Assembly (NCBI GenBank): GCA_027010005.1 | Contig: JALVCM010000109.1 | Location: forward strand, 1-14,733 | Direction: 5' to 3' | DNA length: 14,733 nt | From: Thiohalobacter sp. | GTDB taxonomy: Bacteria; Pseudomonadota; Gammaproteobacteria; DSM-19610 | Shown: piece after piece, positions 3,912 through 14,070 of the stretch | Numbering within the stretch: position 1 is the stretch's first letter | Layout of the letters: the number at the start of each line of letters is the position of its first letter | Notes under the pieces: model-generated | Database searches by the model: none | Told to the model about the DNA's origin: nothing | What the model saw: the letters and a program-made list of their open reading frames with translations, nothing else | Made by a program: the position numbers and the translations under genes

Positions 3912-4448
3912 TCAAGGATAAGGGGGTGACTGGTTTTCCTCAACAAAGTGCGTGATTTTCTGTACTACGTCACGCACCTTGCAGCCATCGGTTTCGATGA
4001 TAAAATCAGCGACTTCCCGATAAAGCGGGTCACGCTCGGCGAGCAGTTGTTCCAGTTTTTCGCGTGGGTTGTCAGTTTGCAGCAACGGGCGGTTCCGGTC
4101 ATGTGCGGTGCGTTGCAGTTGCTGATCCACAGAGGTTTGCAGGTAAATGACCGTACCGCGGCTGGCCAGGTGTTTGCGGTTTTGTGGGTCCAGTACGGCA
4201 CCGCCCCCGGTGGCAAGTACGATTCCCGGTGTGCCCGACAACTCGTCGATGACTTCCTGCTCGCGCTTGCGGAATCCGGATTCTCCTTCCAATTCAAAGA
4301 CTAACGGGATATCCACACCGGTTCGTGCTTCAATTTCCCTGTCGCTGTCGATGAATCTGAGGTCGAGTGCCCGTGCCAGCTTGCGGCCAATGGTGGATTT
4401 GCCAGCCCCCATGGGGCCGACCAAAAAAAAACTGCCCGGCATTTTCAT
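3912..4448 (-). CDS. aroK: Shikimate kinase
   Basis: A 178-residue shikimate kinase that phosphorylates shikimate at the 3-hydroxyl using ATP. Walker A GPMGAGKST is at 11-19. Shikimate-contacting residues are visible as Asp36 (FIDSD), Arg60 and the GGG at 81-83. The lid arginine lies in DRNRPLL (about 117-123), followed by RDPLYREVAD. Two in-frame ATG codons (4448 and 4442) fit the family N-terminus MKMPGSFFLVGPMGAG; no better upstream start or ribosome binding site is seen. Oddly, both ATGs sit inside a perfect hairpin that is followed by nine T on the coding strand, so this start overlaps an intrinsic terminator (see the terminator entry). The gene follows pilQ by 43 bp and is followed by aroB after 3 bp. 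Confidence 0.96.
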   Translation of the reverse strand: MKMPGSFFLVGPMGAGKSTIGRKLARALDLRFIDSDREIEARTGVDIPLVFELEGESGFRKREQEVIDELSGTPGIVLATGGGAVLDPQNRKHLASRGTVIYLQTSVDQQLQRTAHDRNRPLLQTDNPREKLEQLLAERDPLYREVADFIIETDGCKVRDVVQKITHFVEENQSPPYP

Positions 4449-4457
4449 GCCGGGCAG
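4423..4457 (-). terminator. Intrinsic terminator overlapping the aroK start codon
   Basis: On the minus strand an 11-bp perfect stem (CTGCCCGGCAT paired with ATGCCGGGCAG) encloses a GAAA tetraloop and is followed at once by nine T (4431-4423). This is a classical rho-independent terminator placed 35 bp after the pilQ stop. It would end pilMNOPQ transcripts. Its stem and loop contain both candidate aroK ATG codons, and the T-run encodes the Phe-Phe of AroK (SFFLVG). Some of the T-run could be coding constraint, but the perfect stem just upstream is not explained by that. Termination efficiency is not known. Confidence 0.85.
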
Positions 4458-4491
4458 ATATGCCAGAAATTCAGGCTGTGTACAAGTCGGG

Positions 4492-6645
4492 CTACTGGAT
4501 ACTGATGCCCTGCTTGATGAGTTTCGGGGTCACGAAGATGAGCATTTCACTCTTGTTGTTGGTTTTACGCTCGGTCCTGAACAGCCAGCCGACACCCGGC
4601 AGCTCGCCAAAGAAGGGAACACGTTCCGCTTCCTTGCCGCGCTCCTGCTCGTAAATACCACCGAGAACCAGGGTTTCACCATTGTCGACCAGAACCCGTG
4701 TTTCGACATTACGGGTATCGATACTGGGGACGCCGGCAAAGATCTGGCCCACGCTGTCCTTGCTGACCTTCAGGTCCATGATGATGCGGTCATCCGGCGT
4801 GATCTGGGGTGTGACCCGCAGTTCCAGTACGGCTTCCTTGAAGGTCACCGCTGTTGCACCACTTGAAGACGCACGCTGGTAGGGTATTTCGACACCCTGC
4901 TGGATAACGGCTTCCTGCTGATTGGAGGTAATGACACGCGGACTGGAGATCACTTCACCGCGATCTTCCAGTTGCATGGCGCTCAGTTCCAGTGCCAGCA
5001 GGTTGCTGCCCAGTTTGCCCAGTGCGATGCCCAGGGCACCGGAAGGGTTGGTAGCCGGAAGATTGACCAGCAGTCCTTCGTTACCGCTGCCGCCCGGGAC
5101 TTCGTAGGCGGTGATGGTATCTGCGTAATTGACGTCACCATTCTGTTTGCCACCCAGGACAAACTGGGTTTCATTGTCACGTGCCGTGCTGTTGTGACTG
5201 AGGCCGAACTTGACGCCCAGTTCGCGGGCGAAGTCATTGTTGGCCAGCACAATACGTGACTCGATCAGTACCTGGCGTACCGGGATATCCAGGCGGGCGA
5301 CCAGGCGGCGGATCTGCTCCAGCTTCTCAGCCGTATCCTGGATGAGCAGTGTATTGGTGCGTTCATCAACAGACACCTTGCCGCGCTCCGACATCTGTGA
5401 GCTGTCTTCAGAGCTCAGCAGGTCGGCAAGGTCGGTGGCCTTGGCATAGTTGACCTGGATAAGGTCAGAATACAGCGGTGCCAGTTCCTCGATCTGTTTC
5501 ATCGACTCAAGTTCGAGTTTTTCACGTGCGGCGATTTCCTCGCTCGGTGCGATCAGGATGACATTGCCATTTTCACGCTTGGCAAGGCCCTTGGTCTTCA
5601 GCACGATATCCAGTGCCTGGTCCCAGGGAACATTCTGCATGCGCAGGCTCAGGTTGCCGGTGACAGAGTCACTGACCACGATATTCTGGCCGGTGAAGTC
5701 AGACAGCAACTGCAGGACCGAACGAACCTCGATGTCCTGAAAGTTGAGGGACAGGCGCTCGCCGGTGTAACCGAACTCTTCTTTCTTCGCCAGTTCCTTT
5801 TCTTCCTTGGTGGTTTCGCGCACTTCGACCGTAAACTGGTTATCGCTCTGGTAGGCGAGGTGTTCATATTCGCCAATCGGTGTGATTTCCATGCGAACGC
5901 CGTCGCGTTTGTTTTCGGTGTCAACCAGTTTCACCGGTGTGGCGAAATCGGTGACATCCAGGCGGCGTTCCAGCTCTTCCGGCAGCGTTGCGCCGGCAAA
6001 ATCCAGAACGATCTTTCCGGCTTCCTGTCGCATGTCGACCGGGATAGACGGGTCAGACAGTGTGACGATGACACGGCCTTCACCCTGTTCACCACGGCGG
6101 AAGTCAATGCCTGTAATCGTGGGGGTGATGCTCGCAGCACTGTTACCAGAGGTGGCAGTTGTGCTTGCAGGCGCGGCTGTTTCAATACGCTGGCCCGAGC
6201 TGCCAAGTGTGACAATAATCCTGTTGCCTTCGGTACGGGTTTCGTAGGGCACCATTTCAAAAAGGTTGAGTACTACACGGGTGCGACCCTTGACCTCGAC
6301 CGCGGTGACGCTCTTGGCGGGGCCTATGCCGATGGTCTGTGAACGCTTGGCAAGTTCACTTTTTGTTGCAGGCAGATCGAAAGCAATACGCGCCGGGTTA
6401 TCGATGGTAAAGCTGGCCGGGTTGGAGACAGGTTGCTTCAGCTCAAAGGTGATTTGTACCTGGTTGCCGGGCAGTCCTGCAAAATTGATGTTTTTGAGAC
6501 TGTTCAGTTCAGGCGCTGCGGCACCTGCAGTCTGCAGACCGGCGGCAAACAACATGCCCAGGATAAAAATCCTGTTCAGTGTATGGGCGGCCGACCACGT
6601 TGCGATTCGCGCGGCATCCTTCCACATGGTGTGAATTGCATTCAT
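4492..6645 (-). CDS. pilQ: Type IV pilus outer-membrane secretin PilQ
   Basis: PilQ forms the multimeric outer-membrane channel for the type IV pilus and, in competent bacteria, for DNA uptake. With the ATG at 6645 it has 717 residues. A signal peptide with an unusually long N-region has its hydrophobic core at about 26-40 and ends near AGAAA at 40-44. Two AMIN domains (about 46-148 and 175-275) should bind peptidoglycan; then come a secretin N0/STN domain (about 296-370), a NolW-type N1 domain (about 390-455) and the secretin core (about 560-712) with the signature VPFFGELPGVGWLFR at 676-690. An upstream in-frame ATG at 6660 abuts the pilP stop, but GGAG placed 9 bases before 6645 favours the shorter start. 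It is the last gene of pilMNOPQ, and an intrinsic terminator follows 35 bp after its stop. Confidence 0.97.
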   Translation of the reverse strand: MNAIHTMWKDAARIATWSAAHTLNRIFILGMLFAAGLQTAGAAAPELNSLKNINFAGLPGNQVQITFELKQPVSNPASFTIDNPARIAFDLPATKSELAKRSQTIGIGPAKSVTAVEVKGRTRVVLNLFEMVPYETRTEGNRIIVTLGSSGQRIETAAPASTTATSGNSAASITPTITGIDFRRGEQGEGRVIVTLSDPSIPVDMRQEAGKIVLDFAGATLPEELERRLDVTDFATPVKLVDTENKRDGVRMEITPIGEYEHLAYQSDNQFTVEVRETTKEEKELAKKEEFGYTGERLSLNFQDIEVRSVLQLLSDFTGQNIVVSDSVTGNLSLRMQNVPWDQALDIVLKTKGLAKRENGNVILIAPSEEIAAREKLELESMKQIEELAPLYSDLIQVNYAKATDLADLLSSEDSSQMSERGKVSVDERTNTLLIQDTAEKLEQIRRLVARLDIPVRQVLIESRIVLANNDFARELGVKFGLSHNSTARDNETQFVLGGKQNGDVNYADTITAYEVPGGSGNEGLLVNLPATNPSGALGIALGKLGSNLLALELSAMQLEDRGEVISSPRVITSNQQEAVIQQGVEIPYQRASSSGATAVTFKEAVLELRVTPQITPDDRIIMDLKVSKDSVGQIFAGVPSIDTRNVETRVLVDNGETLVLGGIYEQERGKEAERVPFFGELPGVGWLFRTERKTNNKSEMLIFVTPKLIKQGISIQ

Positions 6646-6660
6646 CGTTTTTATCTCCAT

Positions 6661-13976: not shown

Positions 13977-13990
13977 TATCCAGTACCCCC

Positions 13991-14070
13991 GTCATTGCGA
14001 GCGAAGCGCGGCAATCTCCGTCAGTCTGGCGCAGGAATTAAAGAGATTGCCGCGCTGCGCTCGCAATGAC
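13991..14070. repeat. 80-bp palindromic (REP/MITE-like) repeat between convergent genes
   Basis: Two 28-base arms (13991-14018 and 14043-14070) are reverse complements with one mismatch (27 of 28) around a 24-base loop. The arms begin GTCATTGCGAGCG and end GGCAATCTC, a type of sequence I remember as recurring in intergenic regions of many proteobacterial genomes. There is no coding capacity. No T-run follows either arm, so it is not a standard intrinsic terminator, though such a strong hairpin could stabilise 3' ends of the convergent purT and maeB transcripts. No target duplication is seen in the flanks. Confidence 0.85.

Follow-up and report, generated by a model that had tools for sequence, protein, structure and literature searches.

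The closest described relatives of the arrangement discussed here come from mobile DNA and from phage. In IS10, RNA that reads through from outside the element folds a hairpin over the start of the transposase gene, whereas RNA from the gene's own promoter starts within the 5' arm of that hairpin and is translated; this fold-back inhibition of IS10/Tn10 is said to go back to Davis, Simons and Kleckner in 1985. In phage T4, the early read-through mRNAs of gene e, gene 49 and I-TevI hide the start codon, while a late promoter lying in the hairpin gives a late mRNA in which it is open, and we know of no terminator function for these early/late hairpins. The passages on transposase control in PMC5006887 and PMC8450116 do not describe the IS10 effect. 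A further point of comparison is the leaderless mRNA, which passages of PMC3890552 describe for C. glutamicum as starting at the start codon itself, and which passages of PMC7566282 define for Z. mobilis as one whose RNA start lies within 5 nt of the start codon.

The locus that interests us is the border between the pilus gene pilQ and the shikimate kinase gene aroK in a contig of 14.7 kb, which is the whole stretch analysed (here, the window), from an assembly of 2.44 Mb that is 82% complete. By analogy, the logic that we propose for it is that of fold-back inhibition in IS10 and in the T4 early/late mRNAs. It is like IS10 in that the gene's own RNA begins inside the 5' arm, at aroK as a prediction only, and unlike it in that IS10 governs the transposase of a mobile element with a Shine-Dalgarno (SD) sequence, whereas aroK is a housekeeping gene, is predicted to be leaderless and, in Thiogranum, carries a T-run on its hairpin. 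The likeness to T4 would be a start hidden in read-through mRNA and open in own-promoter mRNA; the difference is that T4 uses temporal phage control and SD-led mRNAs. An aroK RNA start at the predicted site would also fall within 5 nt of the ATG, as in leaderless mRNAs (1-2 nt, or 3 nt at loci L234 and L235 when anchored on the promoter boxes), but a terminator stem shared with the start is not described in those passages of PMC3890552 and PMC7566282. Finally, a GC-rich stem with a T-run directly downstream of an operon is what an ordinary intrinsic terminator looks like, except that at aroK both lie inside the start of the next gene and overlap its predicted promoter. In searches of the open-licence literature we recognised nothing that describes the aroK element, nor a terminator and a leaderless start combined in a housekeeping gene.

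The pilQ-aroK border in the window

The features concerned are as follows.

4492..6660, minus strand: pilQ, secretin (PF00263 and AMIN), stop codon at 4494-4492
4480..4485, minus strand: predicted -35 box TTGTAC, 6 bp after the pilQ stop (TTG-N17 conservation)
4457..4462, minus strand: predicted -10 box CATATC, preceded by TCTGG, extended -10-like (conservation)
4450, minus strand: predicted RNA start (+1), 2 nt ahead of the ATG (rule: 6 nt after the -10 box)
4457-4432, minus strand: hairpin CTGCCCGGCAT-GAAA-ATGCCGGGCAG with an 11-bp stem (sequence, terminator scan, folding, conserved pairing)
4431-4423, minus strand: T9 tract in the aroK codons Ser-Phe-Phe-Leu (sequence, codon choice)
3912..4448, minus strand: aroK, shikimate kinase (PF01202, 187 bits)

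Pfam backs the identities of AroK, PilQ and AroB. An earlier note on this DNA had described an 11-bp stem, a GAAA loop and nine T, with both possible aroK start codons inside the hairpin, and sequence and scan agree on all of this at 4457-4423 of the minus strand: the ATG at 4448 and the alternative at 4442 both lie within the hairpin, and the T-run does fall in aroK coding sequence, reading AGT TTT TTT TTG. Where that description fell short was in the extent, because the conserved sequence is longer and runs from 4485 to 4419. The stem is the longest among the 18 terminator-like sites that a scan of the window returned at a loose threshold, at which shuffled sequences average 15.3 sites, and the predicted fold of the 141-nt region around it is worth -55.5 kcal/mol, where shuffled versions give -43.3 +/- 3.8 (z -3.2) and none of 200 does as well. 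In 400 kb of Thiogranum longum, 10 terminator-like sites survive a strict filter (stem of at least 9), and when these are compared with simple ORF calls of at least 150 aa, that of aroK is the only one at an ATG start; one lies at a doubtful GTG start, one within an ORF, one ends 15 nt ahead of an ORF start and six are unflagged. A GC-rich hairpin with a U-rich tract directly 3' of it, as in an intrinsic terminator, is present both in the window and across the genus, and predicted folds bury the start codon in the read-through RNA.

The earlier note also raised the thought that the element might be a regulated attenuator setting the ratio of pilus to shikimate enzymes, and the position of the terminator ahead of most of the aroK coding sequence would suit such a role. 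We consider this highly improbable. Read-through RNA was folded at 16 loci of the family (L002-L017), and at these the hairpin belongs to the minimum-energy structure; by eye, the varying 3' arms show no pairing with the conserved TTTCTGGCA block; neither a competing structure, a leader peptide nor a ligand site is seen; the window gives no match to any Rfam family; and in four genomes where pilQ is not its neighbour aroK has the element all the same. An attenuator working through a competing structure was for the same reasons of fold and Rfam set aside as unsupported.

Conservation of the hairpin and of the T-run

To follow the element outwards we used a covariance model of 67 positions, R1, built on 21 sequences, together with a search that found AroK in 52 of 56 genomes. 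Since absence of the stem from close relatives had been named beforehand as the result that would count against the idea, it is reassuring that the element is present in 15 of the 15 genus genomes with an AroK match, the window's own included (two of the 17 gave no AroK match). Of the 20 genomes of the window's order, 18 have an R1 match at the start of aroK, G004 and G011 giving neither element nor AroK, and a closer search of three more orders gave such matches in 17 of 23, 11 of 11 and 1 of 2 genomes. This makes 47 R1 loci, all 47 at the aroK start; the genomes without a match are G004, G011, G291 and G301 (no AroK match), four others of f153, and G135. Across a sample of the class, 17 of 274 genomes match, eight of them at aroK, and the nine other matches are weak (E 7e-4 to 0.0096), with no AroK P-loop anywhere in their loci. 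A broader survey for hairpins with the start inside found 10 among 95 loci, each belonging to the window's order, to f122 or to G135; the 95 are the readable ones of 100 (L080, L086, L125, L141 and L202 left out), the list is not independent because some relatives were added on purpose, and its perfect-stem filter missed L081, which has a mismatch. None of 12 more distant loci (L020-L031) has an in-frame ATG or GTG inside a hairpin, L030 having a strong hairpin in the start region without either. For orientation, the window's AroK is 93% identical to the shikimate kinase of Thiogranum longum, which NCBI taxonomy places in Chromatiales, Ectothiorhodospiraceae.

We also considered, and rejected, a repeated genomic family, as 18 of 20 genomes hold one R1 copy each when the best 150 first-look candidates per genome are scored; beyond these, G005 has its second copy, and three weak rows (E 0.016-0.020) come from G001, G005 and G013. 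Palindromes of other kinds do occur: at L013 and L200, long ones made of two inverted units of about 25-30 nt lie between the upstream gene and aroK and resemble repetitive extragenic palindromes, and at the far end of the window 13990-14070 translates to CERSAAISVSLAQELKRLPRCARND, which we take to be the familiar pattern of dispersed palindromic repeats and not a gene.

The earlier note had suggested looking for covariation of the stem, and pairing is maintained through the changes seen among relatives, with two-sided changes at only one of the 11 pairs. One pair is GC in 14, AU in five and GU in two of 21 sequences, and the covariation score of the whole structure was reached by none of 500 shuffles, although related sequences inflate such scores. 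The arms are kept where the loop differs in length, with 1 nt fewer in L190-L193 and 3 nt more in L189 and L233-L235. When five of the 47 loci, picked to span the groups, were redrawn synonymously with the protein held fixed, the observed fold was matched in 88, 18, 44, 63 and 529 of 3000 draws, support being weak at L229. The best case that pairing is what is conserved is G135, an AT-rich genome of the fourth order that R1 missed, in which the aroK start codon sits in a 12-bp hairpin of unrelated sequence and -15.3 kcal/mol, with T7 behind it, written in the codons that follow an Asn, a layout like that of the window. Judged by such comparisons of sequence, the conservation of a hairpin at the aroK start is not chance.

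An inverted repeat this close to perfect, lying across a predicted RNA start, might instead be a DNA operator for a dimeric regulator of aroK, and in another family the -35 box by eye also falls within a second inverted repeat. We think this very unlikely and have rejected it: the half-sites are held at no fixed spacing (it varies from -1 to +3 nt), G.U changes are tolerated (L178, L181), the G135 palindrome is unrelated in sequence, and g224, which has another terminator, lacks the repeat. As for that second repeat (CTGGC...TTGCCAG around the -35), by eye it is present in many of L201, L202, L214-L227 and L200, about 50-80 nt before the aroK P-loop, and in L218 and L200 it is altered yet paired; read-through RNAs of many f153 loci would therefore carry two hairpins in tandem.

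The T-run has a history of its own, written in codons. Codon choice was compared in 16 AroK genes, those of 15 genomes of the genus and that of G017. Phe in the leader, two codons per gene, is written TTT every time (32 of 32 cells), whereas three conserved Phe columns further in have TTT in 15 of 48; the leader Ser is AGT in 15 of 16, compared with 3 of 16 at the inner conserved Ser examined; and the leader Leu is TTG in 11 of 16, although TTG accounts for 12% of the Leu codons sampled from T. longum. We read this as a T-run under selection in the window's family, with p-values no more than indicative, since the cells share ancestry. The run is T6-9 throughout the genus and, among 18 loci of the window's order and family, T9 in 11, T7 in four, T6 in one and broken (TTTGTTT) in two. 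Beyond the window's family it is mostly broken in this way or poor (4 of 9 T in L200, L236 and L237) and the hairpin is kept, so that termination cannot be its sole role there. At the level of protein, a search of named genomes found Ser-Phe-Phe at this position in 6 of 78 readable aroK loci out of 80, all six from the window's order, the commonest reading being Asn-Ile-Phe (at least 38 of the 78). Set out in a row, NIFL (L200, L236), NLFL or NVFL (L229-L235), SLFL (L183, L184 and 16 of 17 f153 loci) and SFFL (the 16 AroK genes) look like a T-run built stepwise on a hairpin older than the run, with the direction of the series being our inference.

All this bears on a simpler proposal, in which the hairpin is a fold-back gate and little else: it hides the start in read-through RNA, termination is a minor or late matter in Thiogranum, and aroK RNA still starts in the 5' arm. 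Families that retain the hairpin with a broken or poor T-run speak for it, as does the spread of runs in the window's own family, unbroken T7 or T9 in 15 of 18 loci and otherwise T6 or TTTGTTT. We nevertheless hold it to be unlikely, given the uniform TTT choice, the placing of the run in an SFFL stretch whose SFF occurs, among the 78 readable aroK loci, in six of the window's order alone, and the absence of the hairpin in g224, where a separate terminator exists.

The predicted promoter and its natural separations from the hairpin

How, then, would aroK be expressed? Of the alternatives raised in the earlier note, an RNA start in the hairpin or immediately ahead of it fits best, because a conserved TTG-N17-C(A/T)NANC arrangement puts the predicted start inside the 5' arm, and the opening of the hairpin by a ribosome, which the note had thought necessary unless an internal promoter did this, becomes superfluous if the RNA starts there. 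In the window the 17-bp spacer between TTGTAC and CATATC ends in TTTCTGG, and the last base of CATATC (4457) doubles as the first base of the stem. Anchored on the hairpin, 42 of 47 loci have TTG at N17 from the C(A/T)NANC box; among the other five, L203 and L237 have 16 bp, L234 and L235 have an extra base before the stem, and L228 (G298) is the sole locus of the 47 without recognisable boxes, its hairpin being intact and its promoter block rearranged. The pattern TTG-N17-C[AT][ATC]A[ACT]C covers all 21 members of the first set, from which it was itself derived. The first 10 bases of the spacer are variable, and TCTG precedes the second box in 41 to 45 of the 47 loci, depending on the position. 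The predicted +1, 6 nt past the second box, is a purine in 46 of 47 loci and, anchored on the stem, lies 1-2 nt before the ATG in 47 of 47, a short leader that follows in part from the anchoring, since the distance to the ATG is set by the stem; with the boxes as anchor, L234 and L235 have 3 nt. Over the 47 loci the whole hairpin is worth -12.6 to -22.4 kcal/mol, and RNA from the predicted +1 only -0.6 to -4.9, with the box-anchored +1 of L084 (= L234) leaving -9.1 kcal/mol.

The predicted promoter has its weaknesses. The -10 box is a poor match to TATAAT (3 of 6), a sigma-70 scan of the window does not list the aroK box site, and the bare motif TTG-N17-CAWANC is hardly enriched in T. longum (33 occurrences, compared with 16-31 in five shuffles); a sigma-54 site in TGGCATACCTGCC was rejected for a GG-GC spacing of 7, not 10 (by eye). 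Nor does the ribosome-binding site set aroK apart as sharply as the earlier note had it. The weak SD of aroK and the clear ones of pilM, pilN, pilO and pilP stand, but pilQ, placed there among the clear cases, is weak as well: strengths are -1.5 kcal/mol for aroK, -2.4 for pilQ, +1.3 for aroB and -2.3 for the HD-domain gene, beside a median of -2.5 for random 20-mers, so that a site no stronger than that median is not peculiar to aroK. An SD is likewise absent at aroK in the 21 loci tested (-1.5 kcal/mol in 19, -2.0 and +1.5 in the other two). The case for an aroK promoter, which we regard as likely, rests on the conserved spacing and on the natural separations of boxes and hairpin.

In G005, G014 and G015, pilQ lies upstream of aroK on the same contig at about 7.2, 1.8 and 2.0 kb, and in G003 it is on another contig; in all four the element stays with aroK, and by eye no stem with T-run is found in the 250 nt after their pilQ. 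A gene with an Ig-like domain follows pilQ in these four Thiogranum genomes (L196:5192-6916 with PF02369 in G005; by eye in G003, G014 and G015). Non-Watson-Crick pairs (U.G, A.G, G.G) occur in the outer seven stem pairs at 3 of 4 pilQ-separated loci versus 0 of 14 pilQ-adjacent ones, a contrast uncorrected for kinship, and true mismatches at 2 of 4 versus 0 of 14 (p 0.04). The stem of G015 is intact although pilQ has moved away, and at L186, where a gene is inserted after pilQ, it is still intact. G005 holds two copies. The left one, terminator-like and sited after the Ig-like-domain gene (PF02369), has an unbroken hairpin and T7, has lost its TCTGG/-10 block and has no aroK behind it; the right one, promoter-like and sited before aroK, keeps the promoter block and carries a G.G mismatch in its stem and T6; between them (L196:7080-11997, minus strand) lies a set of genes for molybdopterin oxidoreductase, NrfD and 4Fe-4S proteins. 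Four g224 genomes have a separate hairpin with T-run upstream of aroK (-18.7 to -20.5 kcal/mol) and no comparable hairpin at the start (-1.5 to -4.6 kcal/mol), a fifth having given no AroK. Among these, L239 and L241, with pilQ adjacent, keep TTG-N17-CATACC at 8 nt from the ATG, and L238 and L240, with a different gene upstream, have neither the hairpin nor the TTG boxes. Hairpin and boxes can thus each exist without the other.

The plainest account of the border would be compaction, in which the pilQ terminator simply slid into the start of aroK and aroK is expressed by leaky read-through or from promoters inside pilQ, with the ribosome melting the stem. Separate terminator-like hairpins do lie upstream of aroK in nine of the 70 named-genome loci that were readable out of 80 (L089, L096, L099, L100, L104, L113, L126, L136 and L137), and this speaks for it. 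We judge it improbable all the same: the element remains with aroK after pilQ has moved, the two-box block upstream is conserved at nearly fixed spacing, aroK has no SD, and a strong stem would cover the ATG in any read-through RNA.

A border probably set by the start of the RNA

The hairpin, the T-run, the start codon inside and the conservation through changes that keep the pairing can be read directly from the sequences. The explanation that we favour, and consider probable, is a 67-bp element at the pilQ-aroK border in which the hairpin and T9 would stop pilus RNA and an overlapping, likely promoter would start aroK RNA inside the 5' arm. RNA entering from the pilus genes would fold the hairpin and in Thiogranum would likely terminate at the T-run; in RNA that passes the T-run, or where the run is weak, the aroK start codon would be buried and go untranslated. 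The mRNA for AroK itself would begin near 4450 with hardly any leader and, lacking the 5' arm, could not fold the hairpin and would escape it, and the outcome would be an aroK unresponsive to transcription of the pilus operon. The hairpin would thus be a one-way gate set by where the RNA starts, not a sensor.

A bolder version, to which we give even chances, is that this is an insulator common to four gammaproteobacterial orders, with promoter, start codon and terminator stem overlapping, and that in Thiogranum the AroK protein was bent, Ser-Phe-Phe replacing Asn-Ile-Phe, to write the T-run. If so, aroK would hear only its own promoter. Genes crowded behind another operon face read-through, and the element would solve that problem in 67 bp and without any protein, the same bases being a terminator for foreign RNA and nothing at all for the gene's own. 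What transposons and phage T4 achieve by folding back would here have a leaderless counterpart in a housekeeping gene. The proposal makes exact predictions for the RNA ends and, as relatives have separated versions, the two functions of the element can be tested apart. Such borders may also be misread by terminator finders and by start-codon callers alike.
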